A stretch of DNA of 64,000 nucleotides, taken from contig JBAIAA010000021.1 of NCBI GenBank assembly GCA_037893245.1, positions 2,170,001-2,234,000 of the forward strand, read 5' to 3'. Position numbers and translations under genes: made by a program. This document shows, piece after piece, positions 1-62,107 of this stretch (the first letter of the stretch is position 1; each line of letters starts with the position of its first letter). The notes beneath the pieces are model-generated. The model was not told the DNA's origin. It saw only the letters and a program-made list of their open reading frames with translations, and made no database searches. The stretch comes from Crossaster papposus (taxonomy: Eukaryota > Echinodermata > Asteroidea > Velatida > Solasteridae).

Positions 1-70
1 GGATTAGCTCAAATGGTAGAGCGCTCGCTTTGCATGTGAGATGTACCGGGATCGATACCCGGATCTTCCA
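1..70 (+). tRNA. tRNA-Ala (TGC), 5' cut by window
   Basis: Unit 1; TGC consensus. The first three bases lie before the window. Confidence 0.93.
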
Positions 71-124
71 TATAATATTTGTTGATTTTTACTGCATGGT
101 ATTTCTTCATTTTATAATTTTCAC

Positions 125-152
125 AAATATACTCAAGAATGAGAGATGTGTT
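125..152 (+). promoter_or_regulatory. Upstream TATA-like element of the tRNA unit (example)
   Basis: In both main spacer types an AATATA hexamer lies at -27 to -22 from tRNA base 1, followed by CTCAAGAA and a purine-rich stretch. It is kept in almost every unit although other spacer bases differ. A TATA-like box at this distance is known to help TFIIIB placement at many RNA polymerase III genes; that role here is inferred. Confidence 0.55.
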
Positions 153-225
153 GGGGGATTAGCTCAAATGGTAGAGCGCTCGCTTAGCATGCGAGAGGTA
201 CCGGGATCGATACCCGGATCTTCCA
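153..225 (+). tRNA. tRNA-Ala (AGC)
   Basis: Unit 2; AGC consensus. Anticodon at 186-188. Confidence 0.96.
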
Positions 226-240
226 AATAATATTTGTTCA

Positions 241-245
241 TTTTT
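241..245 (+). terminator. RNA polymerase III T5 terminator (example, unit 2)
   Basis: A run of five T lies 16 to 20 bases after the tRNA 3' end. The same run at the same distance follows nearly all units in every spacer type, which argues that each gene is terminated separately rather than read through to the next. A few spacers (after units 132, 146 and 166) have only four T. Confidence 0.75.
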
Positions 246-307
246 ACTGCATGGTCTTTCTTCATTTTATAATTTTCACAAATATACTCAAGAATAAGAT
301 ATGTGTT

Positions 308-380
308 GGGGGATTAGCTCAAATGGTAGAGCGCTCGCTTTACATGTGAGATGTACCGGGATCGATACCCGGATCTTCCA
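308..380 (+). tRNA. tRNA with Val anticodon (TAC) on an Ala body
   Basis: Unit 3. The body is the TGC type with G35A, so the anticodon at 341-343 is TAC, which would read valine GUA. G3:U70 and A73 are intact, so alanyl-tRNA synthetase is expected to charge it with alanine. Scanners would call it tRNA-Val. It is matched by unit 98. Confidence 0.93.
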
Positions 381-462
381 TATAATATTTGTTGATTTTT
401 ACTGCATGGTATTTCTTCATTTTATAATTTTCACAAATATACTCAAGAATGAGAGATGTGTT

Positions 463-535
463 GGGGGATTAGCTCAAATGGTAGAGCGCTCGCTTAGCAT
501 GCGAGAGGTACCGAGATCGATACCCGGATCTTCCA
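463..535 (+). tRNA. tRNA-Ala (AGC)
   Basis: Unit 4; G52A mispairs in the T stem. Shared with unit 99. Confidence 0.9.
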
Positions 536-617
536 AATAATATTTCTTCATTTTTACTGCATGGTATTTCTTTATTTTATAATTTTCACAAATATACTCA
601 AGAATGAGACATGTGTT

Positions 618-690
618 GGGGGATTAGCTCAAATGGTAGAGCGCTCGCTTAGCATGCGAGAGGTACCGGGATCGATACCCGGATCTTCCA
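618..690 (+). tRNA. tRNA-Ala (AGC)
   Basis: Unit 5; AGC consensus. Confidence 0.95.
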
Positions 691-772
691 AATAATATGT
701 GTTGATTTTTACTGTATGGCATTTCTTCATTTTGTAATTTTCTAAAATATACTCAAGAAAAAGATGTGTGTT

Positions 773-845
773 GGGGGATTAGCTCAAATGGTAGAGCGCT
801 CGCTTTGCATGTGAGATGTACCGGGATCGATACCCGGATCTTCCA
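773..845 (+). tRNA. tRNA-Ala (TGC)
   Basis: Unit 6; TGC consensus. Confidence 0.95.
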
Positions 846-927
846 TATAATATTTGTTGATTTTTACTGCATGGTATTTCTTCATTTTATAATTCTCACA
901 AATATACTCAAGAATGAGAGATGTTTT

Positions 928-1000
928 GGGGGATTAGCTCAAATGGTAGAGCGCTCGCTTAGCATGCGAGAGGTACCGGGATCGATACCCGGATCTTCCA
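928..1000 (+). tRNA. tRNA-Ala (AGC)
   Basis: Unit 7; AGC consensus. Confidence 0.95.
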
Positions 1001-1082
1001 AATAATATTTCTTCATTTTTACTGTATGGCATTTCTTCATTTTGTTATTTTCTAAAATATACTCAAGAAAGAGATGTGTGTT

Positions 1083-1154
1083 GGGGGATTAGCTCAAATG
1101 TTAGAGCGCTCGCTTTGCATGTGAGATGTACCGGATCGATACCCGGATCTTCCA
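1083..1154 (+). tRNA. tRNA-Ala (TGC), 72 nt, defective T stem
   Basis: Unit 8; G19T and one G missing from the T stem. Shared with unit 103. Possibly a pseudogene. Confidence 0.8.
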
Positions 1155-1237
1155 TATAATATTTCTTCATTTTTACTGCATGGTATTTCTTCATTTTTAT
1201 AATTTTCACAAATATACTCAAGAATGAGAGATGTGTT

Positions 1238-1310
1238 GGGGGATTAGCTCAAATGGTAGAGCGCTCGCTTAGCATGCGAGAGGTACCGGGATCGATACCC
1301 GGATCTTCCA
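1238..1310 (+). tRNA. tRNA-Ala (AGC)
   Basis: Unit 9; AGC consensus. Confidence 0.95.
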
Positions 1311-1392
1311 AATAATATGTGTTGATTTTTACTGTATGGCATTTCTTCATTTTGTAATGTTCTAAAATATACTCAAGAAAGAGGTGTGTGTT

Positions 1393-1465
1393 GGGGGATT
1401 AGCTCAAATGTTAGAGCGCTCGCTTTGCATGTGAGATGTACCGGGATCGATACCCGGATCTTCCA
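1393..1465 (+). tRNA. tRNA-Ala (TGC)
   Basis: Unit 10; G19T, which removes one of the two conserved D-loop G bases. Confidence 0.9.
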
Positions 1466-1547
1466 TATAATATTTGTTGATTTTTACTGCATGGTATTTC
1501 TTCATTTTATAATTTTTACAAATATACTCAAGAATGAGAGATGTGTT

Positions 1548-1620
1548 GGGGGATTAGCTCAAATGGTAGAGCGCTCGCTTAGCATGCGAGAGGTACCGGG
1601 ATCGATAGCCGGATCTTCCA
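1548..1620 (+). tRNA. tRNA-Ala (AGC)
   Basis: Unit 11; C61G breaks the 53:61 pair and alters the B box. Confidence 0.87.
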
Positions 1621-1702
1621 AATAATATTTGTTCATTTTTACTGCATGGTATTTCTTCATTTTATAATTTTCACAAATATACTCAAGAATGAGAGATGTG
1701 TT

Positions 1703-1775
1703 GGGGGATTAGCTCAAATGATAGAGCGCTCGCTTAGCATGCGAGAGGTACCGGGATCGATACCCGGATCTTCCA
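1703..1775 (+). tRNA. tRNA-Ala (AGC)
   Basis: Unit 12; G19A. Confidence 0.9.
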
Positions 1776-1857
1776 AATAATATGTGTTGATTTTTACTGT
1801 ATGGCATTTCTTCATTTTGTAATTTTCTAAAATATACTCAAGAAAGAGATGTGTGTC

Positions 1858-1930
1858 GGGGGATTAGCTCAAATGGTAGAGCGCTCGCTTTGCATGTGAG
1901 ATGTACCGGGATCGATACCCGGATCTTCCA
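1858..1930 (+). tRNA. tRNA-Ala (TGC)
   Basis: Unit 13; TGC consensus. Confidence 0.95.
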
Positions 1931-2012
1931 TATAATATTTGTTGATTTTTACTGCATGGTATTTCTTCATTGTATAATTTTCACAAATATACTCAAGAAT
2001 GAGAGATGTGTT

Positions 2013-2085
2013 GGGGGATTAGCTCAAATGGTAGAGCGCTCGCTTAGCATGCGAGAGGTACCGGGATCGATACCCGGATCTTCCA
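2013..2085 (+). tRNA. tRNA-Ala (AGC)
   Basis: Unit 14; AGC consensus. Confidence 0.95.
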
Positions 2086-2167
2086 AATAATATTTCTTCA
2101 TTTTTACTGCATGGTATTTCTTTATTTTATAATTTTCACAAATATACTCAAGATTGAGAGATGTGTT

Positions 2168-2240
2168 GGGGGATTAGCTCAAATGGTAGGGCGCTCGCTT
2201 AGCATGCGAGAGGTACCGGGATCGATACCCGGATCTTCCA
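2168..2240 (+). tRNA. tRNA-Ala (AGC)
   Basis: Unit 15; A23G leaves a wobble pair with U12. Confidence 0.93.
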
Positions 2241-2322
2241 AATAATATTTCTTCATTTTTACTGCATGGTATTTCTTTATTTTATAATTTTCACAAATAT
2301 ACTCAAGAATGAGAGATGTGTT

Positions 2323-2395
2323 GGGGGATTAGCTCAAATGGTAGAGCGCTCGCTTAGCATGCGAGAGGTACCGGGATCGATACCCGGATCTTCCA
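2323..2395 (+). tRNA. tRNA-Ala (AGC)
   Basis: Unit 16; AGC consensus. Confidence 0.95.
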
Positions 2396-2478
2396 AATAA
2401 TTATGTGTTGATTTTTACTGTATGGCATTTCTTCATTTTGTAATTTTCTAAAATATACTCAAGAAAGAGATGTGTGTT

Positions 2479-2551
2479 GGGGGATTAGCTCAAATGGTAG
2501 AGCGCTCGCTTTGCATGTGAGATGTACTGGGATCGATACCCGGATCTTCCA
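2479..2551 (+). tRNA. tRNA-Ala (TGC)
   Basis: Unit 17; C50T, wobble pair kept. Confidence 0.94.
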
Positions 2552-2633
2552 TATAATATTTGTTGATTTTTACTGCATGGTATTTCTTCATTTTATAATT
2601 TTCACAAATATACTCAAGAATGAGAGATGTGTT

Positions 2634-2706
2634 GGGGGATTAGCTCAAATGGTAGAGCGCTCGCTTAGCATGCGAGAGGTACCGGGATCGATACCCGGAT
2701 CTTCCA
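2634..2706 (+). tRNA. tRNA-Ala (AGC)
   Basis: Unit 18; AGC consensus. Confidence 0.95.
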
Positions 2707-2788
2707 AATAATATTTGTTCATTTTTACTGCATGGTATTTCTTCATTTTATAATTTTCACAAATATACTCAAGAATAAGATATGTGTT

Positions 2789-2861
2789 GGGGGATTAGCT
2801 CAAATGGTAGAGCGCTCGCTTAGCATGCGAGAGGTACCGGGATCGATACCCGGATCTTCCA
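2789..2861 (+). tRNA. tRNA-Ala (AGC)
   Basis: Unit 19; AGC consensus. Confidence 0.95.
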
Positions 2862-2943
2862 AATAATATTTCTTCATTTTTACTGCATGGTATTTCTTCA
2901 TTGTATAATTTTCACAAATATACTCAAGAATGAGAGATGTGTT

Positions 2944-3016
2944 GGGGGATTAGCTCAAATGGTAGAGCGCTCGCTTAGCATGCGAGAGGTACCGGGATCG
3001 GTACCCGGATCTTCCA
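2944..3016 (+). tRNA. tRNA-Ala (AGC)
   Basis: Unit 20; A58G in the T loop and B box. Confidence 0.88.
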
Positions 3017-3098
3017 AATAATATTTGTTCATTTTTACTGTATGGCATTTCTTCATTTTGTTATTTTCTAAAATATACTCAAGAAAGAGATGTGTGTT

Positions 3099-3171
3099 GG
3101 GGGATTAGCTCAAATGGTAGAGCTCTCGCTTAGCATGCGAGAGGTACCGGGATCGGTACCCGGATCTTCCA
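3099..3171 (+). tRNA. tRNA-Ala (AGC)
   Basis: Unit 21; G26T and A58G. Confidence 0.87.
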
Positions 3172-3253
3172 AATAATATTTGTTCATTTTTACTGCATGG
3201 TATTTCTTCATTTTATAATTTTCACAAATATACTCAAGAATGAGAGATGTGTT

Positions 3254-3326
3254 GGGGGATTAGCTCAAATGGTAGAGCGCTCGCTTAGCATGCGAGAGGT
3301 ACCGGGATCGATACCCGGATCTTCCA
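3254..3326 (+). tRNA. tRNA-Ala (AGC)
   Basis: Unit 22; AGC consensus. Confidence 0.95.
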
Positions 3327-3409
3327 AATAATTATGTGTTGATTTTTACTGTATGGCATTTCTTCATTTTGTAATTTTCTAAAATATACTCAAGAAAGAG
3401 ATGTGTGTT

Positions 3410-3482
3410 GGGGGATTAGCTCAAATGGTAGAGCGCTCGCTTTGCATGTGAGATGTACCGGGATCGATACCCGGATCTTCCA
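3410..3482 (+). tRNA. tRNA-Ala (TGC)
   Basis: Unit 23; TGC consensus. Confidence 0.95.
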
Positions 3483-3564
3483 TATAATATTTGTTGATTT
3501 TTACTGCATGGTATTTCTTCATTTTATAATTTTCACAAATATACTCAAGAATGAGAGATGTGTT

Positions 3565-3637
3565 GGGGGATTAGCTCAAATGGTAGAGCGCTCGCTTAGC
3601 ATGCGAGAGGTACCGGGATCGATACCCGGATCTTCCA
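3565..3637 (+). tRNA. tRNA-Ala (AGC)
   Basis: Unit 24; AGC consensus. Confidence 0.95.
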
Positions 3638-3719
3638 AATAATATTTGTTCATTTTTACTGCATGGTATTTCTTCATTTTATAATTTTCACAAATATACT
3701 CAAGAATGAGAGATGTTTT

Positions 3720-3792
3720 GGGGGATTAGCTCAAATGGTAGAGCGCTCGCTTAGCATGCGAGAGGTACCGGGATCGATACCCGGATCTTCCA
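3720..3792 (+). tRNA. tRNA-Ala (AGC)
   Basis: Unit 25; AGC consensus. Confidence 0.95.
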
Positions 3793-3874
3793 AATAATAT
3801 TTGTTCATTTTTACTGTATGGTATTTCTTCATTGTATAATTTTCACAAATATACTCAAGAATGAGAGATGTGTT

Positions 3875-3947
3875 GGGGGATTATCTCAAATGGTAGAGCG
3901 CTCGCTTAGCATGCGAGAGGTACCGGGATCGATACCCGGATCTTCCA
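3875..3947 (+). tRNA. tRNA-Ala (AGC)
   Basis: Unit 26; G10T breaks the 10:25 pair and the A box. Confidence 0.86.
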
Positions 3948-4029
3948 AATAATATTTCTTCATTTTTACTGTATGGCATTTCTTCATTTTGTTATTTTCT
4001 AAAATATACTCAAGAAAGAGATGTGTGTT

Positions 4030-4102
4030 GGGGGATTAGCTCAAATGTTAGAGCGCTCGCTTTGCATGTGAGATGTACCGGGATCGATACCCGGATCTTC
4101 CA
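4030..4102 (+). tRNA. tRNA-Ala (TGC)
   Basis: Unit 27; G19T. Confidence 0.9.
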
Positions 4103-4184
4103 TATAATATTTCTTCATTTTTACTGCATGGTATTTCTTCATTTTATAATTTTCACAAATATACTCAAGAATGAGAGATGTGTT

Positions 4185-4257
4185 GGGGGATTAGCTCAAA
4201 TGGTAGAGCGCTCGCTTAGCATGCGAGAGGTACCGGGATCGATACCCGGATCTTCCA
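4185..4257 (+). tRNA. tRNA-Ala (AGC)
   Basis: Unit 28; AGC consensus. Confidence 0.95.
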
Positions 4258-4339
4258 AATAATATGTGTTGATTTTTACTGTATGGCATTTCTTCATTTT
4301 GTAATGTTCTAAAATATACTCAAGAAAGAGGTGTGTGTT

Positions 4340-4412
4340 GGGGGATTAGCTCAAATGTTAGAGCGCTCGCTTTGCATGTGAGATGTACCGGGATCGATAC
4401 CCGGATCTTCCA
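4340..4412 (+). tRNA. tRNA-Ala (TGC)
   Basis: Unit 29; G19T. The spacer after it has a 4-bp TGAT duplication (159-bp step). Confidence 0.9.
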
Positions 4413-4498
4413 TATAATATTTGTTGATTGATTTTTACTGCATGGTATTTCTTCATTTTATAATTTTCACAAATATACTCAAGAATGATAGATGTGTT

Positions 4499-4571
4499 GG
4501 GGGATTAGCTCAAATGGTAGAGCGCTCGCTTAGCATGCGAGAGGTACCGGGATCGATACCCGGATCTTCCA
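4499..4571 (+). tRNA. tRNA-Ala (AGC)
   Basis: Unit 30; AGC consensus. Confidence 0.95.
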
Positions 4572-4653
4572 AATAATATGTGTAGATTTTTACTGTATGG
4601 CATTTCTTCATTTTGTAATTTTCTAAAATATACTCAAGAAAGAGATGTGTGTT

Positions 4654-4726
4654 GGGGGATTAGCTCAAATGGTAGAGCGCTCGCTTTGCATGTGAGATGT
4701 ACCGGGATCGATACCCGGATCTTCCA
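4654..4726 (+). tRNA. tRNA-Ala (TGC)
   Basis: Unit 31; TGC consensus. Confidence 0.95.
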
Positions 4727-4808
4727 TATAATATTTGTTGATTTTTACTGCATGGTATTTCTTCATTTTATAATTTTCACAAATATACTCAAGAATGAGA
4801 GATGTGTT

Positions 4809-4881
4809 GGGGGATTAGCTCAAATGGTAGAGCGCTCGCTTAGCATGCGAGAGGTACCGGGATCGATACCCGGATCTTCCA
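4809..4881 (+). tRNA. tRNA-Ala (AGC)
   Basis: Unit 32; AGC consensus. Confidence 0.95.
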
Positions 4882-4963
4882 AATAATATTTGTTCATTTT
4901 TACTGCATGGTATTTCTTCATTTTATAATTTTCACAAATATACTCAAGAATGAGAGATGTGTT

Positions 4964-5036
4964 GGGGGATTAGCTCAAATGATAGAGCGCTCGCTTAGCA
5001 TGCGAGAGGTACCGGGATCGATACCCGGATCTTCCA
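4964..5036 (+). tRNA. tRNA-Ala (AGC)
   Basis: Unit 33; G19A. Confidence 0.9.
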
Positions 5037-5118
5037 AATAATATGTGTTGATTTTTACTGTATGGCATTTCTTCATTTTGTAATTTTCTAAAATATACTC
5101 AAGAAAGAGATGTGTGTC

Positions 5119-5191
5119 GGGGGATTAGCTCAAATGGTAGAGCGCTCGCTTTGCATGTGAGATGTACCGGGATCGATACCCGGATCTTCCA
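5119..5191 (+). tRNA. tRNA-Ala (TGC)
   Basis: Unit 34; TGC consensus. Confidence 0.95.
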
Positions 5192-5273
5192 TATAATATT
5201 TGTTGATTTTTACTGCATGGTATTTCTTCATTTTATAATTTTCACAAATATACTCAAGAATGAGAGATGTGTT

Positions 5274-5346
5274 GGGGGATTAGCTCAAATGGTAGAGCGC
5301 TCGCTTAGCATGCGAGAGGTACCGGGATCGATACCCGGATCTTCCA
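5274..5346 (+). tRNA. tRNA-Ala (AGC)
   Basis: Unit 35; AGC consensus. Confidence 0.95.
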
Positions 5347-5428
5347 AATAATATTTGTTCATTTTTACTGCATGGTATTTCTTCATTTTATAATTTTCAC
5401 AAATATACTCAAGAATGAGAGATGTTTT

Positions 5429-5501
5429 GGGGGATTAGCTCAAATGGTAGAGCGCTCGCTTAGCATGCGAGAGGTACCGGGATCGATACCCGGATCTTCC
5501 A
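5429..5501 (+). tRNA. tRNA-Ala (AGC)
   Basis: Unit 36; AGC consensus. Confidence 0.95.
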
Positions 5502-5583
5502 AATAATATTAGTTCATTTTTACTGTATGGCATTTCTTCATTTTGTAATTTTCTAAAATATACTCAAGAAAGAGATGTGTGTA

Positions 5584-5656
5584 GGGGGATTAGCTCAAAT
5601 GGTAGAGCGCTCGCTTTGCATGTGAGATGTACCGGGATCGATACCCGGATCTTCCA
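5584..5656 (+). tRNA. tRNA-Ala (TGC)
   Basis: Unit 37; TGC consensus. Confidence 0.95.
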
Positions 5657-5738
5657 TATAATATTTGTTGATTTTTACTGCATGGTATTTCTTCATTTTA
5701 TAATTTTCACAAATATACTCAAGAATGAGAGATGTGTT

Positions 5739-5811
5739 GGGGGATTAGCTCAAATGGTAGAGCGCTCGCTTAGCATGCGATAGGTACCGGGATCGATACC
5801 CGGATCTTCCA
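5739..5811 (+). tRNA. tRNA-Ala (AGC)
   Basis: Unit 38; G43T opens the outer anticodon-stem pair. Confidence 0.89.
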
Positions 5812-5893
5812 AATAATATTTGTTCATTTTTACTGCATGATATTTCTTCATTTTATAATTTTCACAAATATACTCAAGAATGAGAGATGTTTT

Positions 5894-5966
5894 GGGGGAT
5901 TAGCTCAAATGGTAGAGCGCTCGCTTAGCATGCGAGAGGTACCGGGATCGATACCCGGATCTTCCA
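5894..5966 (+). tRNA. tRNA-Ala (AGC)
   Basis: Unit 39; AGC consensus. Confidence 0.95.
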
Positions 5967-6048
5967 AATAATATTAGTTCATTTTTACTGTATGGCATTT
6001 CTTCATTTTGTAATTTTCTAAAATATACTCAAGAAAGAGATGTGTGTC

Positions 6049-6121
6049 GGGGGATTAGCTCAAATGGTAGAGCGCTCGCTTTGCATGTGAGATGTACCGG
6101 GATCGATACCCGGATCTTCCA
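6049..6121 (+). tRNA. tRNA-Ala (TGC)
   Basis: Unit 40; TGC consensus. Confidence 0.95.
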
Positions 6122-6203
6122 TATAATATTTGTTGATTTTTACTGCATGGTATTTCTTCATTTTATAATTTTCACAAATATACTCAAGAATGAGAGATGT
6201 GTT

Positions 6204-6276
6204 GGGGGATTAGCTCAAATGGTAGAGCGCTCGCTTAGCATGCGAGAGGTACCGGGATCGATACCCGGATCTTCCA
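6204..6276 (+). tRNA. tRNA-Ala (AGC)
   Basis: Unit 41; AGC consensus. Confidence 0.95.
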
Positions 6277-6358
6277 AATAATATTTGTTCATTTTTACTG
6301 TATGGTATTTCTTCATTGTATAATTTTCACAAATATACTCAAGAATGAGAGATGTGTT

Positions 6359-6431
6359 GGGGGATTAGCTCAAATGGTAGAGCGGTCGCTTTGCATGTGA
6401 GATGTACCGGGATCGATACCCGGATCTTCCA
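6359..6431 (+). tRNA. tRNA-Ala (TGC)
   Basis: Unit 42; C27G opens the outer anticodon-stem pair. It is preceded by the spacer type normally found before AGC genes. Confidence 0.88.
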
Positions 6432-6513
6432 TATAATATTTGTTGATTTTTACTGCATGGTATTTCTTCATTTTGTAATTTTCTAAAATATACTAAAGAA
6501 AGAGATGTGTGTT

Positions 6514-6586
6514 GGGGGATTAGCTCAAATGGTAGAGCGCTCGCTTTGCATGTGAGATGTACCGGGATCGATACCCGGATCTTCCA
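6514..6586 (+). tRNA. tRNA-Ala (TGC)
   Basis: Unit 43; TGC consensus. Units 42 and 43 are the only adjacent TGC pair. Confidence 0.95.
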
Positions 6587-6668
6587 TATAATATTTGTTG
6601 ATTTTTACTGCATGGTATTTCTTCATTTTATAATTTTCACAAATATACTCAAGAATGAGAGATGTGTT

Positions 6669-6741
6669 GGGGGATTAGCTCAAATGGTAGAGCGCTCGCT
6701 TAGCATGCGATAGGTACCGGGATCGATACCCGGATCTTCCA
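6669..6741 (+). tRNA. tRNA-Ala (AGC)
   Basis: Unit 44; G43T. Confidence 0.89.
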
Positions 6742-6823
6742 AATAATATTAGTTCATTTTTACTGTATGGCATTTCTTCATTTTGTTATTTTCTAAAATA
6801 TACTCAAGAAAGAGATGTGTGTT

Positions 6824-6896
6824 GGGGGATTAGCTCAAATGGTAGAGCGCTCGCTTAGCATGCGAGAGGTACCGGGATCGGTACCCGGATCTTCCA
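6824..6896 (+). tRNA. tRNA-Ala (AGC)
   Basis: Unit 45; A58G. Confidence 0.88.
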
Positions 6897-6978
6897 AATA
6901 ATATTTGTTCTTTTTTACTGCATGGTATTTCTTCATTGTATAATTTTCACAAATATACTCAAGAATGAGAGATGTATT

Positions 6979-7051
6979 GGGGGATTAGCTCAAATGGTAG
7001 AGCGCTCGCTTAGCATGCGAGAGGTACCGGGATCGATACCCGGATCTTCTA
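6979..7051 (+). tRNA. tRNA-Ala (AGC)
   Basis: Unit 46; C72T gives a G1:U72 wobble. Confidence 0.91.
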
Positions 7052-7134
7052 AATAATTATGTGTTGATTTTTACTGTATGGCATTTCTTCATTTTGTAAT
7101 TTTCTAAAATATACTCAAGAAAGAGATGTGTGTC

Positions 7135-7207
7135 GGGGGATTAGCTCAAATGGTAGAGCGCTCGCTTTGCATGTGAGATGTACCGGGATCGATACCCGGA
7201 TCTTCCA
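7135..7207 (+). tRNA. tRNA-Ala (TGC)
   Basis: Unit 47; TGC consensus. Confidence 0.95.
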
Positions 7208-7289
7208 TATAATATTTGTTCTTTTTTACTGCATGGTATTTCTTCATTGTATAATTTTCACAAATATACTCAAGAATGAGAGATGTGTT

Positions 7290-7362
7290 GGGGGATTAGC
7301 TCAAATGGTAGAGCGCTCGCTTAGCATGCGAGAGGTACCGGGATCGATACCCGGATCTTCCA
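7290..7362 (+). tRNA. tRNA-Ala (AGC)
   Basis: Unit 48; AGC consensus. Confidence 0.95.
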
Positions 7363-7444
7363 AATAATATTTCTTCATTTTTACTGCATGGTATTTCTTT
7401 ATTTTATAATTTTCACAAATATACTCAAGATTGAGAGATGTGTT

Positions 7445-15045: not shown

Positions 15046-15118
15046 GGGGGATTAGCTCAAATGGTAGAGCGCTCGCTTTACATGTGAGATGTACCGGGAT
15101 CGATACCCGGATCTTCCA
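15046..15118 (+). tRNA. tRNA with Val anticodon (TAC) on an Ala body
   Basis: Unit 98; same G35A change as unit 3, which lies 14,738 bp upstream. Anticodon at 15,079-15,081. G3:U70 intact. Confidence 0.93.
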
Positions 15119-21247: not shown

Positions 21248-21320
21248 GGGGGATTAGCTCAAATGGTAGAGCGCTCGCTTAGCATGCGAGAGGTACCGGG
21301 ATCGGTACCCGGATCTTCCA
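21248..21320 (+). tRNA. tRNA-Ala (AGC)
   Basis: Unit 138; A58G. Confidence 0.88.
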
Positions 21321-21402
21321 AATAATATTTGTTCATTTTTACTGCATGGCATTTCTTCATTTTGTTATTTTCTAAAATATACTCAAGAAAGAGATGTGTG
21401 TT

Positions 21403-21475
21403 GGGGGATTAGCTCAAATGGTAGAGCTCTCGCTTAGCATGCGAGAGGTACCGGGATCGGTACCCGGATCTTCCA
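21403..21475 (+). tRNA. tRNA-Ala (AGC)
   Basis: Unit 139; G26T and A58G. Confidence 0.87.
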
Positions 21476-21557
21476 AATAATATTTGTTCATTTTTACTGC
21501 ATGGTATTTCTTCATTTTATAATTTTCACAAATATACTCAAGAATGAGAGATGTGTT

Positions 21558-21630
21558 GGGGGATTAGCTCAAATGGTAGAGCGCTCGCTTAGCATGCGAG
21601 AGGTACCGGGATCGATACCCGGATCTTCCA
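21558..21630 (+). tRNA. tRNA-Ala (AGC)
   Basis: Unit 140; AGC consensus. Confidence 0.95.
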
Positions 21631-21713
21631 AATAATTATGTGTTGATTTTTACTGTATGGCATTTCTTCATTTTGTAATTTTCTAAAATATACTCAAGAA
21701 AGAGGTGTGTGTT

Positions 21714-21786
21714 GGGGGATTAGCTCAAATGGTAGAGCGCTCGCTTTGCATGTGAGATGTACCGGGATCGATACCCGGATCTTCCA
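21714..21786 (+). tRNA. tRNA-Ala (TGC)
   Basis: Unit 141; TGC consensus. Confidence 0.95.
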
Positions 21787-21868
21787 TATAATATTTGTTG
21801 ATTTTTACTGCATGGTATTTCTTCATTTTATAATTTTCACAAATATACTCAAGAATGAGAGATGTGTT

Positions 21869-21941
21869 GGGGGATTAGCTCAAATGGTAGAGCGCTCGCT
21901 TAGCATGCGAGAGGTACCGGGATCGATACCCGGATCTTCCA
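21869..21941 (+). tRNA. tRNA-Ala (AGC)
   Basis: Unit 142; AGC consensus. Confidence 0.95.
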
Positions 21942-22023
21942 AATAATATTTGTTCATTTTTACTGCATGGTATTTCTTCATTTTATAATTTTCACAAATA
22001 TACTCAAGAATGAGAGATGTTTT

Positions 22024-22096
22024 GGGGGATTAGCTCAAATGGTAGAGCGCTCGCTTAGCATGCGAGAGGTACCGGGATCGATACCCGGATCTTCCA
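22024..22096 (+). tRNA. tRNA-Ala (AGC)
   Basis: Unit 143; AGC consensus. Confidence 0.95.
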
Positions 22097-22178
22097 AATA
22101 ATATTTGTTCATTTTTACTGTATGGTATTTCTTCATTGTATAATTTTCACAAATATACTCAAGAATGAGAGATGTGTT

Positions 22179-22251
22179 GGGGGATTATCTCAAATGGTAG
22201 AGCGCTCGCTTAGCATGCGAGAGGTACCGGGATCGATACCCGGATCTTCCA
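22179..22251 (+). tRNA. tRNA-Ala (AGC)
   Basis: Unit 144; G10T. Confidence 0.86.
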
Positions 22252-22333
22252 AATAATATTTCTTCATTTTTACTGTATGGCATTTCTTCATTTTGTTATT
22301 TTCTAAAATATACTCAAGAAAGAGATGTGTGTT

Positions 22334-22406
22334 GGGGGATTAGCTCAAATGTTAGAGCGCTCGCTTTGCATGTGAGATGTACCGGGATCGATACCCGGAT
22401 CTTCCA
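22334..22406 (+). tRNA. tRNA-Ala (TGC)
   Basis: Unit 145; G19T. Confidence 0.9.
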
Positions 22407-22488
22407 TATAATATTTCTTCATTTTTACTTCATGGTATTTCTTCATTTTATAATTTTCACAAATATACTCAAGAATGAGAGATGTGTT

Positions 22489-22561
22489 GGGGGATTAGCT
22501 CAAATGGTAGAGCGCTCGCTTAGCATGCGAGAGGTACCGGGATCGATACCCGGATCTTCCA
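22489..22561 (+). tRNA. tRNA-Ala (AGC)
   Basis: Unit 146; AGC consensus, 154-bp step to the next gene. Confidence 0.95.
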
Positions 22562-22642
22562 AATAATATGTGTTGATTTTACTGTATGGCATTTCTTCAT
22601 TTTGTAATGTTCTAAAATATACTCAAGAAAGAGGTGTGTGTT

Positions 22643-22715
22643 GGGGGATTAGCTCAAATGTTAGAGCGCTCGCTTTGCATGTGAGATGTACCGGGATCGA
22701 TACCCGGATCTTCCA
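22643..22715 (+). tRNA. tRNA-Ala (TGC)
   Basis: Unit 147; G19T, followed by the TGAT-duplicated spacer. Confidence 0.9.
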
Positions 22716-22801
22716 TATAATATTTGTTGATTGATTTTTACTGCATGGTATTTCTTCATTTTATAATTTTCACAAATATACTCAAGAATGAGAGATGTGT
22801 T

Positions 22802-22874
22802 GGGGGATTAGCTCAAATGGTAGAGCGCTCGCTTAGCATGCGAGAGGTACCGGGATCGATACCCGGATCTTCCA
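22802..22874 (+). tRNA. tRNA-Ala (AGC)
   Basis: Unit 148; AGC consensus. Confidence 0.95.
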
Positions 22875-22956
22875 AATAATATGTGTAGATTTTTACTGTA
22901 TGGCATTTCTTCATTTTGTAATTTTCTAAAATATACTCAAGAAAGAGATGTGTGTT

Positions 22957-23029
22957 GGGGGATTAGCTCAAATGGTAGAGCGCTCGCTTTGCATGTGAGA
23001 TGTACCGGGATCGATACCCGGATCTTCCA
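22957..23029 (+). tRNA. tRNA-Ala (TGC)
   Basis: Unit 149; TGC consensus. Confidence 0.95.
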
Positions 23030-23111
23030 TATAATATTTGTTGATTTTTACTGCATGGTATTTCTTCATTTTATAATTTTCACAAATATACTCAAGAATG
23101 AGAGATGTGTT

Positions 23112-23184
23112 GGGGGATTAGCTCAAATGGTAGAGCGCTCGCTTAGCATGCGAGAGGTACCGGGATCGATACCCGGATCTTCCA
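23112..23184 (+). tRNA. tRNA-Ala (AGC)
   Basis: Unit 150; AGC consensus. Confidence 0.95.
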
Positions 23185-23266
23185 AATAATATTTGTTCAT
23201 TTTTACTGCATGGTATTTCTTCATTTTATAATTTTCACAAATATACTCAAGAATGAGAGATGTGTT

Positions 23267-23339
23267 GGGGGATTAGCTCAAATGATAGAGCGCTCGCTTA
23301 GCATGCGAGAGGTACCGGGATCGATACCCGGATCTTCCA
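23267..23339 (+). tRNA. tRNA-Ala (AGC)
   Basis: Unit 151; G19A. Confidence 0.9.
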
Positions 23340-23421
23340 AATAATATGTGTTGATTTTTACTGTATGGCATTTCTTCATTTTGTAATTTTCTAAAATATA
23401 CTCAAGAAAGAGATGTGTGTC

Positions 23422-23494
23422 GGGGGATTAGCTCAAATGGTAGAGCGCTCGCTTTGCATGTGAGATGTACCGGGATCGATACCCGGATCTTCCA
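23422..23494 (+). tRNA. tRNA-Ala (TGC)
   Basis: Unit 152; TGC consensus. Confidence 0.95.
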
Positions 23495-23576
23495 TATAAT
23501 ATTTGTTGATTTTTACTGCATGGTATTTCTTCATTTTATAATTTTCACAAATATACTCAAGAATGAGAGATGTGTT

Positions 23577-23649
23577 GGGGGATTAGCTCAAATGGTAGAG
23601 CGCTCGCTTAGCATGCGAGAGGTACCGGGATCGATACCCGGATCTTCCA
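23577..23649 (+). tRNA. tRNA-Ala (AGC)
   Basis: Unit 153; AGC consensus. Confidence 0.95.
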
Positions 23650-23731
23650 AATAATATTTGTTCATTTTTACTGCATGGTATTTCTTCATTTTATAATTTT
23701 CACAAATATACTCAAGAATGAGAGATGTTTT

Positions 23732-23804
23732 GGGGGATTAGCTCAAATGGTAGAGCGCTCGCTTAGCATGCGAGAGGTACCGGGATCGATACCCGGATCT
23801 TCCA
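23732..23804 (+). tRNA. tRNA-Ala (AGC)
   Basis: Unit 154; AGC consensus. Confidence 0.95.
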
Positions 23805-23886
23805 AATAATATTTGTTCATTTTTACTGTATGGTATTTCTTCATTGTATAATTTTCACAAATATACTCAAGAATGAGAGATGTGTT

Positions 23887-23959
23887 GGGGGATTAGCTCA
23901 AATGGTAGAGCGCTCGCTTTGCATGTGAGATGTACCGGGATCGATACCCGGATCTTCCA
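23887..23959 (+). tRNA. tRNA-Ala (TGC)
   Basis: Unit 155; TGC consensus. Confidence 0.95.
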
Positions 23960-24041
23960 TATAATATTTGTTGATTTTTACTGCATGGTATTTCTTCATT
24001 TTATAATTTTCACAAATATACTCAAGAATGAGAGATGTGTT

Positions 24042-24114
24042 GGGGGATTAGCTCAAATGGTAGAGCGCTCGCTTAGCATGCGAGAGGTACCGGGATCGAT
24101 ACCCGGATCTTCCA
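24042..24114 (+). tRNA. tRNA-Ala (AGC)
   Basis: Unit 156; AGC consensus. First unit of the second copy of the 20-unit duplication. Confidence 0.95.
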
Positions 24115-24196
24115 AATAATATTTGTTCATTTTTACTGCATGGTATTTCTTCATTTTATAATTTTCACAAATATACTCAAGAATAAGATATGTGTT

Positions 24197-24269
24197 GGGG
24201 GATTAGCTCAAATGGTAGAGCGCTCGCTTAGCATGCGAGAGGTACCGGGATCGATACCCGGATCTTCCA
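24197..24269 (+). tRNA. tRNA-Ala (AGC)
   Basis: Unit 157; AGC consensus. Confidence 0.95.
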
Positions 24270-24351
24270 AATAATATTTCTTCATTTTTACTGCATGGTA
24301 TTTCTTCATTGTATAATTTTCACAAATATACTCAAGAATGAGAGATGTGTT

Positions 24352-24424
24352 GGGGGATTAGCTCAAATGGTAGAGCGCTCGCTTAGCATGCGAGAGGTAC
24401 CGGGATCGGTACCCGGATCTTCCA
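24352..24424 (+). tRNA. tRNA-Ala (AGC)
   Basis: Unit 158; A58G. Confidence 0.88.
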
Positions 24425-24506
24425 AATAATATTTGTTCATTTTTACTGCATGGCATTTCTTCATTTTGTTATTTTCTAAAATATACTCAAGAAAGAGATG
24501 TGTGTT

Positions 24507-24579
24507 GGGGGATTAGCTCAAATGGTAGAGCTCTCGCTTAGCATGCGAGAGGTACCGGGATCGGTACCCGGATCTTCCA
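24507..24579 (+). tRNA. tRNA-Ala (AGC)
   Basis: Unit 159; G26T and A58G. Confidence 0.87.
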
Positions 24580-24661
24580 AATAATATTTGTTCATTTTTA
24601 CTGCATGGTATTTCTTCATTTTATAATTTTCACAAATATACTCAAGAATGAGAGATGTGTT

Positions 24662-24734
24662 GGGGGATTAGCTCAAATGGTAGAGCGCTCGCTTAGCATG
24701 CGAGAGGTACCGGGATCGATACCCGGATCTTCCA
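24662..24734 (+). tRNA. tRNA-Ala (AGC)
   Basis: Unit 160; AGC consensus. Confidence 0.95.
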
Positions 24735-24817
24735 AATAATTATGTGTTGATTTTTACTGTATGGCATTTCTTCATTTTGTAATTTTCTAAAATATACTCA
24801 AGAAAGAGGTGTTTGTT

Positions 24818-24890
24818 GGGGGATTAGCTCAAATGGTAGAGCGCTCGCTTTGCATGTGAGATGTACCGGGATCGATACCCGGATCTTCCA
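24818..24890 (+). tRNA. tRNA-Ala (TGC)
   Basis: Unit 161; TGC consensus. Confidence 0.95.
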
Positions 24891-24972
24891 TATAATATTT
24901 GTTGATTTTTACTGCATGGTATTTCTTCATTTTATAATTTTCACAAATATACTCAAGAATGAGAGATGTGTT

Positions 24973-25045
24973 GGGGGATTAGCTCAAATGGTAGAGCGCT
25001 CGCTTAGCATGCGAGAGGTACCGGGATCGATACCCGGATCTTCCA
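24973..25045 (+). tRNA. tRNA-Ala (AGC)
   Basis: Unit 162; AGC consensus. Confidence 0.95.
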
Positions 25046-25127
25046 AATAATATTTGTTCATTTTTACTGCATGGTATTTCTTCATTTTATAATTTTCACA
25101 AATATACTCAAGAATGAGAGATGTTTT

Positions 25128-25200
25128 GGGGGATTAGCTCAAATGGTAGAGCGCTCGCTTAGCATGCGAGAGGTACCGGGATCGATACCCGGATCTTCCA
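25128..25200 (+). tRNA. tRNA-Ala (AGC)
   Basis: Unit 163; AGC consensus. Confidence 0.95.
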
Positions 25201-25282
25201 AATAATATTTGTTCATTTTTACTGTATGGTATTTCTTCATTGTATAATTTTCACAAATATACTCAAGAATGAGAGATGTGTT

Positions 25283-25355
25283 GGGGGATTATCTCAAATG
25301 GTAGAGCGCTCGCTTAGCATGCGAGAGGTACCGGGATCGATACCCGGATCTTCCA
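25283..25355 (+). tRNA. tRNA-Ala (AGC)
   Basis: Unit 164; G10T. Confidence 0.86.
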
Positions 25356-25437
25356 AATAATATTTCTTCATTTTTACTGTATGGCATTTCTTCATTTTGT
25401 TATTTTCTAAAATATACTCAAGAAAGAGATGTGTGTT

Positions 25438-25510
25438 GTGGGATTAGCTCAAATGTTAGAGCGCTCGCTTTGCATGTGAGATGTACCGGGATCGATACCC
25501 GGATCTTCCA
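25438..25510 (+). tRNA. tRNA-Ala (TGC)
   Basis: Unit 165; G2T opens acceptor pair 2:71, plus G19T. G2T is absent from the matching unit 145, so it arose after the duplication. Confidence 0.85.
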
Positions 25511-25592
25511 TATAATATTTCTTCATTTTTACTTCATGGTATTTCTTCATTTTATAATTTTCACAAATATACTCAAGAATGAGAGATGTGTT

Positions 25593-25665
25593 GGGGGATT
25601 AGCTCAAATGGTAGAGCGCTCGCTTAGCATGCGAGAGGTACCGGGATCGATACCCGGATCTTCCA
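25593..25665 (+). tRNA. tRNA-Ala (AGC)
   Basis: Unit 166; AGC consensus. Confidence 0.95.
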
Positions 25666-25746
25666 AATAATATGTGTTTATTTTACTGTATGGCATTTCT
25701 TCATTTTGTAATGTTCTAAAATATACTCAAGAAAGAGGTGTGTGTT

Positions 25747-25819
25747 GGGGGATTAGCTCAAATGTTAGAGCGCTCGCTTTGCATGTGAGATGTACCGGGA
25801 TCGATACCCGGATCTTCCA
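25747..25819 (+). tRNA. tRNA-Ala (TGC)
   Basis: Unit 167; G19T, followed by the TGAT-duplicated spacer. Confidence 0.9.
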
Positions 25820-25905
25820 TATAATATTTGTTGATTGATTTTTACTGCATGGTATTTCTTCATTTTATAATTTTCACAAATATACTCAAGAATGAGAGAT
25901 GTGTT

Positions 25906-25978
25906 GGGGGATTAGCTCAAATGGTAGAGCGCTCGCTTAGCATGCGAGAGGTACCGGGATCGATACCCGGATCTTCCA
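25906..25978 (+). tRNA. tRNA-Ala (AGC)
   Basis: Unit 168; AGC consensus. Confidence 0.95.
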
Positions 25979-26060
25979 AATAATATGTGTAGATTTTTAC
26001 TGTATGGCATTTCTTCATTTTGTAATTTTCTAAAATATACTCAAGAAAGAGATGTGTGTT

Positions 26061-26133
26061 GGGGGATTAGCTCAAATGGTAGAGCGCTCGCTTTGCATGT
26101 GAGATGTACCGGGATCGATACCCGGATCTTCCA
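26061..26133 (+). tRNA. tRNA-Ala (TGC)
   Basis: Unit 169; TGC consensus. Confidence 0.95.
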
Positions 26134-26215
26134 TATAATATTTGTTGATTTTTACTGCATGGTATTTCTTCATTTTATAATTTTCACAAATATACTCAAG
26201 AATGAGAGATGTGTT

Positions 26216-26288
26216 GGGGGATTAGCTCAAATGGTAGAGCGCTCGCTTAGCATGCGAGAGGTACCGGGATCGATACCCGGATCTTCCA
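26216..26288 (+). tRNA. tRNA-Ala (AGC)
   Basis: Unit 170; AGC consensus. Confidence 0.95.
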
Positions 26289-26370
26289 AATAATATTTGT
26301 TCATTTTTACTGCATGGTATTTCTTCATTTTATAATTTTCACAAATATACTCAAGAATGAGAGATGTGTT

Positions 26371-26443
26371 GGGGGATTAGCTCAAATGATAGAGCGCTCG
26401 CTTAGCATGCGAGAGGTACCGGGATCGATACCCGGATCTTCCA
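26371..26443 (+). tRNA. tRNA-Ala (AGC)
   Basis: Unit 171; G19A. Confidence 0.9.
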
Positions 26444-26525
26444 AATAATATGTGTTGATTTTTACTGTATGGCATTTCTTCATTTTGTAATTTTCTAAAA
26501 TATACTCAAGAAAGAGATGTGTGTC

Positions 26526-26598
26526 GGGGGATTAGCTCAAATGGTAGAGCGCTCGCTTTGCATGTGAGATGTACCGGGATCGATACCCGGATCTTCCA
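26526..26598 (+). tRNA. tRNA-Ala (TGC)
   Basis: Unit 172; TGC consensus. Confidence 0.95.
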
Positions 26599-26680
26599 TA
26601 TAATATTTGTTGATTTTTACTGCATGGTATTTCTTCATTTTATAATTTTCACAAATATACTCAAGAATGAGAGATGTGTT

Positions 26681-26753
26681 GGGGGATTAGCTCAAATGGT
26701 AGAGCGCTCGCTTAGCATGCGAGAGGTACCGGGATCGATACCCGGATCTTCCA
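26681..26753 (+). tRNA. tRNA-Ala (AGC)
   Basis: Unit 173; AGC consensus. Confidence 0.95.
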
Positions 26754-26835
26754 AATAATATTTGTTCATTTTTACTGCATGGTATTTCTTCATTTTATAA
26801 TTTTCACAAATATACTCAAGAATGAGAGATGTTTT

Positions 26836-26908
26836 GGGGGATTAGCTCAAATGGTAGAGCGCTCGCTTAGCATGCGAGAGGTACCGGGATCGATACCCGG
26901 ATCTTCCA
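26836..26908 (+). tRNA. tRNA-Ala (AGC)
   Basis: Unit 174; AGC consensus. Confidence 0.95.
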
Positions 26909-26990
26909 AATAATATTTGTTCATTTTTACTGTATGGTATTTCTTCATTGTATAATTTTCACAAATATACTCAAGAATGAGAGATGTGTT

Positions 26991-27063
26991 GGGGGATTAG
27001 CTCAAATGGTAGAGCGCTCGCTTTGCATGTGAGATGTACCGGGATCGATACCCGGATCTTCCA
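26991..27063 (+). tRNA. tRNA-Ala (TGC)
   Basis: Unit 175; TGC consensus. Confidence 0.95.
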
Positions 27064-27145
27064 TATAATATTTGTTGATTTTTACTGCATGGTATTTCTT
27101 CATTTTATAATTTTCACAAATATACTCAAGAATGAGAGATGTGTT

Positions 27146-27218
27146 GGGGGATTAGCTCAAATGGTAGAGCGCTCGCTTAGCATGCGAGAGGTACCGGGAT
27201 CGATACCCGGATCTTCCA
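27146..27218 (+). tRNA. tRNA-Ala (AGC)
   Basis: Unit 176; AGC consensus. Confidence 0.95.
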
Positions 27219-27300
27219 AATAATATTTGTTCATTTTTACTGCATGGTATTTCTTCATTTTATAATTTTCACAAATATACTCAAGAATGAGAGATGTGTT

Positions 27301-27373
27301 GGGGGATTAGCTCAAATGATAGAGCGCTCGCTTAGCATGCGAGAGGTACCGGGATCGATACCCGGATCTTCCA
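27301..27373 (+). tRNA. tRNA-Ala (AGC)
   Basis: Unit 177; G19A. Confidence 0.9.
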
Positions 27374-27455
27374 AATAATATGTGTTGATTTTTACTGTAT
27401 GGCATTTCTTCATTTTGTAATTTTCTAAAATATACTCAAGAAAGAGATGTGTGTC

Positions 27456-27528
27456 GGGGGATTAGCTCAAATGGTAGAGCGCTCGCTTTGCATGTGAGAT
27501 GTACCGGGATCGATACCCGGATCTTCCA
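27456..27528 (+). tRNA. tRNA-Ala (TGC)
   Basis: Unit 178; TGC consensus. The spacer after it carries a unique 6-bp insertion near 27,590. Confidence 0.95.
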
Positions 27529-27616
27529 TATAATATTTGTTGATTTTTACTGCATGGTATTTCTTCATTTTATAATTTTCACAAATATAGGCCTACTCAA
27601 GAATGAGAGATGTGTT

Positions 27617-27689
27617 GGGGGATTAGCTCAAATGGTAGAGCGCTCGCTTAGCATGCGAGAGGTACCGGGATCGATACCCGGATCTTCCA
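27617..27689 (+). tRNA. tRNA-Ala (AGC)
   Basis: Unit 179; AGC consensus. Confidence 0.95.
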
Positions 27690-27771
27690 AATAATATTTG
27701 TTCATTTTTACTGCATGGTATTTCTTCATTTTATAATTTTCACAAATATACTCAAGAATGAGAGATGTTTT

Positions 27772-27844
27772 GGGGGATTAGCTCAAATGGTAGAGCGCTC
27801 GCTTAGCATGCGAGAGGTACCGGGATCGATACCCGGATCTTCCA
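27772..27844 (+). tRNA. tRNA-Ala (AGC)
   Basis: Unit 180; AGC consensus. Confidence 0.95.
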
Positions 27845-27926
27845 AATAATATTTGTTCATTTTTACTGTATGGTATTTCTTCATTGTATAATTTTCACAA
27901 ATATACTCAAGAATGAGAGATGTGTT

Positions 27927-27999
27927 GGGGGATTATCTCAAATGGTAGAGCGCTCGCTTAGCATGCGAGAGGTACCGGGATCGATACCCGGATCTTCCA
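27927..27999 (+). tRNA. tRNA-Ala (AGC)
   Basis: Unit 181; G10T. Confidence 0.86.
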
Positions 28000-28081
28000 A
28001 ATAATATTTCTTCATTTTTACTGCATGGTATTTCTTTATTTTATAATTTTCACAAATATACTCAAGAATGAGAGATGTGTT

Positions 28082-28154
28082 GGGGGATTAGCTCAAATGG
28101 TAGAGCGCTCGCTTAGCATGCGAGAGGTACCGGGATCGATACCCGGATCTTCCA
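28082..28154 (+). tRNA. tRNA-Ala (AGC)
   Basis: Unit 182; AGC consensus. Confidence 0.95.
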
Positions 28155-28236
28155 AATAATATGTGTTGATTTTTACTGCATGGTATTTCTTCATTTTATA
28201 ATTTTCACAAATATACTCAAGAATGAGAGATGTGTT

Positions 28237-28309
28237 GGGGGATTAGCTCAAATGGTAGAGCGCTCGCTTAGCATGCGAGAGGTACCGGGATCGATACCCG
28301 GATCTTCCA
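28237..28309 (+). tRNA. tRNA-Ala (AGC)
   Basis: Unit 183; AGC consensus. Confidence 0.95.
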
Positions 28310-28391
28310 AATAATATTTCTTCATTTTTACTGCATGGTATTTCTTCATTTTATAATTTTCACAAATATACTCAAGAATGAGAGATGTGTT

Positions 28392-28464
28392 GGGGGATTA
28401 GCTCAAATGGTAGAGCGCTCGCTTAGCATGCGAGATGTACCGGGATCGATACCCGGATCTTCCA
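28392..28464 (+). tRNA. tRNA-Ala (AGC), mosaic
   Basis: Unit 184, the last of the array. G45T and the following spacer are TGC type while the anticodon is AGC. Confidence 0.92.
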
Positions 28465-28615
28465 TATAATATTTGTTGATTTTTACTGCATGGTATTTCT
28501 TCTCTTTATAATTTTCACAAATATACTTAAATTTAATTCCATTGCCGTACATATAGCTGACGCAAGTTTGCATAGTTAATGCGTAGCAAGTGCAAAGCTG
28601 TACGGGTTTTACAAA

Positions 28616-62103: not shown

Positions 62104-62107
62104 TTAA

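Follow-up and report, generated by a model that had tools for sequence, protein, structure and literature searches.

In the zebrafish, maternally deposited transfer RNAs (tRNAs) come from highly repetitive regions, and late isodecoders come from single or few isolated copies (PMC11417395). The repetitive region of chromosome 4 also carries maternal 5S genes, and the maternal expression of its tRNAs is still presented as a hypothesis (PMC11075544). In Nematostella, tRNA genes and pseudogenes number more than 17,000; the clustered share is 89% there, 65% in zebrafish and 87% in stickleback (PMC2888827). Tandem arrays of noncoding RNA in Hydractinia hold tens or even hundreds of copies each (PMC11067881). 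The variable number tandem repeat (VNTR) of tRNA genes at human 1q23.3 comprises 9-43 units of 7.3 kb and bears a CTCF site (PMC4041453). Plant tRNA clusters contain 2-110 genes (PMC12652284), and the SYY cluster of Arabidopsis is silent in most tissues and active in the root cap (PMC12308677). The subject of this study is a tandem array of alanine tRNA (tRNA-Ala) genes in the sea star Crossaster papposus. Its right-hand end occupies positions 1-28527 of a 64,000-nucleotide stretch, termed "the window" (C21:2,170,001-2,234,000, where C21 is contig JBAIAA010000021.1 of an assembly of 1,023,315,904 bases in 1,841 contigs).

An anchor search located 184 head-to-tail tRNA-Ala units in window positions 1-28527, with no break. 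Tandem Repeats Finder (TRF) described the same interval as one array with a period of 155, 183.9 copies, 92% matches and 0% indels. The 183 unit spacings were 155 bp (163 times), 156 bp (11 times), 159 bp (4 times), 154 bp (4 times) and 161 bp (once). ARAGORN predicted 176 tRNA genes in the window, all on the + strand (174 Ala and 2 Val). The Rfam family RF00005 was matched 142 times at or above the gathering score in positions 1-22000 (56.5 bits for the best match, 35.1 for the lowest). This number equals that of the array units present there (142), and the units in that interval missed by ARAGORN therefore match RF00005 too. The anticodon was AGC in 128 of the 184 window units, TGC in 54 and TAC in 2; stem pairing was complete in 159 of 181 (3 units with alignment gaps were left out). 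The first gene is truncated by the window edge, with its first 3 bases lying outside. A chance origin of this tandem pattern is excluded. The initial annotation had described an unbroken array of at least 184 genes with a 155-bp unit at these positions, and both the count and the coordinates proved correct. The features to which the text refers are as follows.

1..28527, + strand: the last 184 units (155 bp each) on the right-hand side of the tRNA-Ala array, in a single orientation (ARAGORN, TRF, anchors)
125..131, + strand: AAATATA, a TATA-like element at -28 to -22 relative to the gene at 153 (sequence)
153..225, + strand: example of an AGC-type tRNA-Ala gene; complete pairing in the 7-4-5-5 stems, with G3-U70, G4-U69 and A73 (Rfam 56.5 bits, fold of 152-224, consensus pairs)
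241..245, + strand: TTTTT, candidate RNA polymerase III (Pol III) terminator 16-20 nt past the gene at 153-225 (sequence)
308..380, + strand (second at 15046-15118): variant with TAC (Val) anticodon, one change from the TGC type (ARAGORN, Rfam)
773..845, + strand: representative TGC-type tRNA-Ala gene; A34T, C40T and G45T relative to the AGC type (type alignment, Rfam)
28392..28464, + strand: final tRNA gene of the array (ARAGORN; Rfam, 55 bits)
28528..28841, + strand: flank in common with contig C170, 98.9% over 28398-28659 and 96.3% over 28760-28841, with an 18-bp minisatellite (TRF, contig comparison)

C21:1,970,001-2,170,000 was read and joined to the window. Between C21 positions 1,970,047 and 2,198,396, 228.5 kb were read without a break and contained 1,474 units; the leftmost point is still inside the array. 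The spacing was exactly 155 bp in 1,263 of the 1,473 unit intervals. Spaced probes were used farther to the left. All nine from 1,675,001 to 1,960,001 carried the unit on the + strand. A stretch of ca. 2 kb without a recognisable unit separates this + array from an inverted block, in which the unit was on the minus strand in 10 of 11 probes (1,620,001-1,670,001; the exception was 1,650,001). The unit was absent from nine probes at 1,602,001-1,618,001 and from five at 1,500,001-1,600,001. The negative and positive probes together thus place the left edge of the locus between C21 1,618,161 and ca. 1,620,000, which gives a span of ca. 580 kb and, by extrapolation at 155 bp per unit, about 3,700 units. 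The inverted block was read over 4.75 kb at its inner edge, where 18 anchors and 12 ARAGORN genes were found; the units nearest the block's edge were the most altered. The array had been said to continue beyond the window, and it does: by direct reading to 1,970,047 and by probes to ca. 1.62 Mb. Its earlier description as a single-family array of extreme size was correct and understated the case, as more than 1,000 units were read and the extrapolation runs to thousands.

A second array is found on contig C170, where all 17 probes between 606,001 and 954,001 (ca. 350 kb) showed the unit on the + strand; about 2,200 units are extrapolated. The C170 probes at 1, 400,001, 600,001, 602,001, 604,001, 956,001, 958,001, 960,001, 980,001 and 1,000,001 were without the unit. 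The right flank of C170 matches that of the window in the same order, with 98.9% in a 262-bp segment at the edge, 93.8% in one of 516 bp ca. 6 kb on, and 85.5% in one of 497 bp ca. 26 kb on; the probes at 956,001, 958,001 and 1,000,001 matched nothing in the window past 28,400. Because the flanks are collinear, C170 probably represents the other haplotype of the C21 locus, and a segmental duplication could be the alternative. The 30 kb read on C170 contained 155 units; one of the intervals measured 5,727 bp and so exceeded a unit by 5,572 bp. Exact copies of 100 of these 155 units exist in the C21 set. With all 155 compared, the order of units nevertheless differs between the contigs from their common edge onward, the longest run in common being 5 units. 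In the long interval (C170:938820-944546), the 3' spacer of one unit is interrupted by an insertion of ca. 5.6 kb that resembles a mobile element and has open reading frames of up to 254 amino acids.

All 40 full-length unit matches that were scored genome-wide fell on C21 and C170. A pattern for the 3' half of the AGC type, with one mismatch allowed, had 2,834 forward and 83 reverse matches genome-wide. This pattern catches 780 of the 1,629 units read (48%), and calibration with that fraction gives ca. 5,900 forward units genome-wide, compared to ca. 5,600 from the sum of both array lengths. In the inverted block, where the units are more decayed, the pattern caught not one of the 18 that were read.

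Each unit consists of a 73-bp tRNA gene with preserved signals and an 82-bp spacer. The gene has the cloverleaf of a nuclear tRNA-Ala gene (7/4/5/5 stems); in the consensus, all 21 of 21 stem pairs are standard, and G3-U70 is adjoined by G4-U69. The identity elements of alanine tRNAs are G3-U70, A73 and an NGC anticodon. Among the 1,474 units of C21, the anticodon is AGC in 974, TGC in 481, TTC in 7, TAC in 7, ACC in 4 and ATC in 1, i.e. an alanine anticodon in 1,455. Strict gene tests were applied to 1,444 units, with 30 gapped units left out. Of these, 1,425 have an alanine anticodon, 1,430 have G3-U70 with A73, 1,262 have the invariant bases, 1,055 have all stems paired, and 877 pass every test. 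ARAGORN detected 1,410 of the 1,474, all on the + strand. AAATATA lies 28-22 bp upstream of the gene in 1,462 of 1,474 units, and a downstream run of at least four T is present in 1,460. The A box retains its consensus sequence in 1,363 units and the B box in 1,271. The A box fits the general consensus; the B box deviates from that consensus at positions 54 and 60, and does likewise in the dispersed genes described below. It had been proposed that most copies keep the cloverleaf, both internal promoter boxes and the terminator. The cloverleaf and the terminator (T5 or longer in 1,436 of 1,474) stand; both boxes are unchanged in 1,168 of 1,474 units. The TGC type is mostly linked to one spacer type. 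In minimum-energy folds of the bare RNA, the TGC type (772-844) did not adopt the cloverleaf, unlike the AGC type (152-224).

The genome also contains tRNA-Ala genes outside the arrays. Exact matches to one pattern identified three complete, dispersed tRNA-Ala-AGC genes (C182:1616902, C456:2601956 and C456:2603870). All three have U68-C69 where the array has C68-U69, and a run of 9 or 10 T that starts 4-5 nt past the gene. C68-U69 occurs in 1,468 of the 1,474 array units, and U68-C69 in none of them. An isolated gene of the array type is located at C21:1,489,697. This combination of a repetitive array and distinct, isolated isodecoder genes is, in structure, that of a maternal array of the zebrafish kind. 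A genome-wide tRNA search passed from 213,984 first-look candidates to 63 that were scored and 61 matches that were listed; 30 of these 61 are on C479 (24360-485726). There, tRNA-Lys(TTT) genes occur three times in each of two 1.8-kb samples, 572 to ca. 795 bp apart, and three more are spaced at 770 bp at C424:1322501-1324300. The same two contigs bear 5S ribosomal RNA genes 217-219 bp apart (C479:13639-15071 and C424:1411851-1534918). Tandem Pol III genes are thus not restricted to the Ala locus. Two further observations were made on tRNA genes elsewhere. Those on C8, a 5.3-Mb contig, end in an encoded CCA, and this contig looks like a bacterial contaminant or symbiont. Genes resembling tRNA-Thr(GGT) are found on eight contigs and are possibly the heads of a tRNA-derived short interspersed nuclear element (SINE).

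The locus has several traits in common with satellite DNA: a short unit repeated head to tail over long distances, higher-order repeats, and turnover between probable haplotypes. The 1,474 units represent 554 different sequences, and their gene bodies 229. A small number of linked gene/spacer types recur in ordered blocks (higher-order repeats), and similarity is lower between neighbouring units (0.916) than between units paired at random (0.931). Near the right end is a near-exact duplication of ca. 25.3 kb, with a shift of 163 units and up to 39 consecutive exact units. Alleles with a frequency of at most 1% number 117 in 73 gene sites and 110 in 82 spacer sites; per site, gene versus spacer, these rare alleles amount to 1.09 versus 1.24 at A/T and 2.00 versus 1.68 at G/C. 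Of the alleles above 1%, the gene has 13 and the spacer 34, a depletion in the gene (Fisher p = 0.0036; 0.039, 0.0025 and 0.0075 at cut-offs of 0.5%, 2% and 5%), although the common variants are strongly linked in a few subfamilies and the test therefore overstates their independence. Because rare alleles are equally dense in gene and spacer and common ones are depleted in the gene, single copies mutate freely and the spread of gene variants is restricted. The pattern is evidence against a requirement for every individual copy. A few good founder units would yield a similar site picture.

The locus is a real tRNA-Ala multigene array with an estimated span of ca. 0.58 Mb, and each 155-bp unit carries a predicted Pol III gene with internal boxes, a TATA-like element upstream and a T5 run as its candidate terminator. 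Its likeliest function, which we advance tentatively, is the supply of tRNA-Ala at a specific stage, possibly a maternal one, by genes that unequal exchange maintains. Such exchange, together with the amplification of blocks, would make and homogenise the array in the fashion of a satellite, and the consequence of such exchange would be that single copies decay freely and altered types rarely spread. The array would serve as a specialised set of isodecoders, off in most cells and on where a big, fast supply of tRNA is needed, most likely in the oocyte or early embryo; the housekeeping supply of tRNA-Ala would come from the dispersed genes. Stage specificity is suggested because the split between array and dispersed genes has the same form as in the zebrafish, which gives the closest functional precedent. 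Also in favour of this reading are the preserved signals of the units (paired consensus stems, alanine identity elements, T5 and AAATATA), the scarcity of common variants in the gene, the joint occurrence of 5S and tRNA-Lys tandem copies on C424 and C479, and the tissue-restricted activity of the Arabidopsis SYY cluster. A more specific proposal, possible though rather doubtful, is an "oocyte-type" tRNA-Ala locus resembling oocyte 5S ribosomal DNA. In it, thousands of U69-type genes would be silent in the soma and would load the egg with two isoacceptors from one locus; the units would be selected in bulk only and turn over like a satellite, and the soma would be served by a few C69-type genes.

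Several points weigh against a stage-specific array. The zebrafish case comes from a different species and offers an analogy; directly beside the Ala array, neither 5S nor Lys repeats were observed. The G4-U69 pair next to G3-U70 could impair charging. The T5 run, at 16-20 nt downstream, is farther from the gene and shorter than the T run of the dispersed genes, and A and B boxes are jointly unchanged only in the number of units given above. No purifying selection on individual copies was visible in the rare stem alleles, 16 of 76 of which keep pairing compared to 13.2 expected from the spacer spectrum, and the linkage among common variants tempers the Fisher test.

Nearly as likely as the stage-specific array is a mostly silent, tRNA-derived satellite, in which gene and spacer were tandemly amplified and are heterochromatic, with no function or only a structural one, and in which unequal exchange maintains the array and conservation stems from a few good founders. 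Such a satellite would explain the higher-order arrangement and the dissimilarity of neighbours, the 163-unit shifted duplication, the haplotype-like arrays that are non-collinear from their common edge on, the equal density of rare variants in gene and spacer with no pairing bias, the decay of the inverted block toward its edge, and a 155-bp unit that is near nucleosomal size. It fits less well with the depletion of common variants in the gene, the near fixation of G3-U70, A73 and the anticodon, the retention of T5 and AAATATA, the tandem arrangement of Lys tRNA and 5S genes in the same genome, and an array end only ca. 7.5 kb from a kindlin-like exon. Far less probable is a constitutive gene-dosage reserve, whereby the array would supply bulk tRNA-Ala to all tissues. 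That most units score as tRNA (142 by Rfam in 22 kb; 1,410 of 1,474 by ARAGORN) and that AGC and TGC isoacceptors are both numerous would be expected of a reserve, but thousands of genes of one isotype would presumably surpass ordinary need, no per-copy selection is seen, and complete dispersed genes exist. The initial annotation had offered a reserve of tRNA and a chromatin satellite as alternatives. The two are not mutually exclusive. The turnover is of the satellite type, and the mutation pattern speaks against an individual need for each copy.

That annotation had also named assembly inflation, i.e. a few real units stacked by the assembler, as an outcome that would overturn it. Two points would suit inflation: assemblers are known to err on tandem repeats, and the 163-unit block is almost exact. 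It is nonetheless very unlikely to account for the whole array, because hundreds of kb of the repeat lie on each of two contigs whose flanks match and whose units, where compared, differ in order, and because 554 of 1,474 units are distinct. In addition, the arrays include the ca. 5.6-kb insertion, the inverted block and non-array stretches, and the forward-unit number calibrated by pattern (ca. 5,900) is near that from lengths (ca. 5,600). A pure assembly artefact was rejected on the grounds of the two contigs and the distinct units.

Two other identities were discarded. A tRNA-derived SINE was rejected since the units are regular and head-to-tail, not single insertions, and a bacterial or viral tRNA array was rejected by the 1.02-Gb assembly and the kindlin exon. 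The latter, an N-terminal exon of kindlin (FERMT), is at window positions 36027-36185 on the + strand (domain at 36063-36185), ca. 7.5 kb from the array end. A Pfam search of the stop-masked flank frames returned only this exon; minus frames at 43500-64000 and one plus frame at 58490-64000 lay outside the search. The 18-bp minisatellite at the array edge (window 28616-28803) has 10.4 copies, and fewer on C170 (TRF, contig comparison). When fragments of the unit were compared with literature text, a short T-arm string was found in one Drosophila paper.

Arrays of tRNA genes are known; the size and higher-order structure of the present one are unusual. Single tandem arrays of tRNA genes in the literature excerpts compared hold tens to hundreds of genes, whereas 1,474 were read here and several thousand are likely, and no array of comparable size was found in the excerpts of open-licence literature searched. 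The locus allows the upkeep of a gene family to be studied under satellite-type turnover, with no single copy mattering. It also bears on tRNA gene dosage as a developmental (maternal) device and on how two isoacceptors stay together. As C68-U69 is specific to the array, its expression can be read by ordinary tRNA sequencing.

The arrays of Hydractinia differ from the present one, which has an 82-bp spacer, more than 1,000 units read and higher-order repeats. Entamoeba arrays are also made of tandem tRNA units, but these are of 25 types, with as many as 5 tRNA genes per unit and short tandem repeat spacers (PMC2652664). The Arabidopsis SYY cluster and other plant clusters are likewise tandem and of few isotypes, with genes fewer by one to two orders of magnitude (PMC12308677, PMC12652284). 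The human 1q23.3 VNTR resembles the sea star locus as a tandem tRNA repeat with a large difference in copy number between alleles, and differs from it in its 9-43 units, their length of 7.3 kb each and its CTCF site (PMC4041453). Nematostella, zebrafish and stickleback also have very many clustered tRNA genes; the clusters of Nematostella and zebrafish are mostly small and mostly of heterogeneous neighbours, whereas the present array is of one isotype (PMC2888827). With zebrafish chromosome 4, the sea star genome has in common repetitive tRNA genes plus a few isolated isodecoders, and 5S genes that are repeated too (PMC11417395, PMC11075544). The array described here differs from that region in its single isotype and its 155-bp unit, and its maternal use is a proposal, whereas maternal deposition was measured in the zebrafish.

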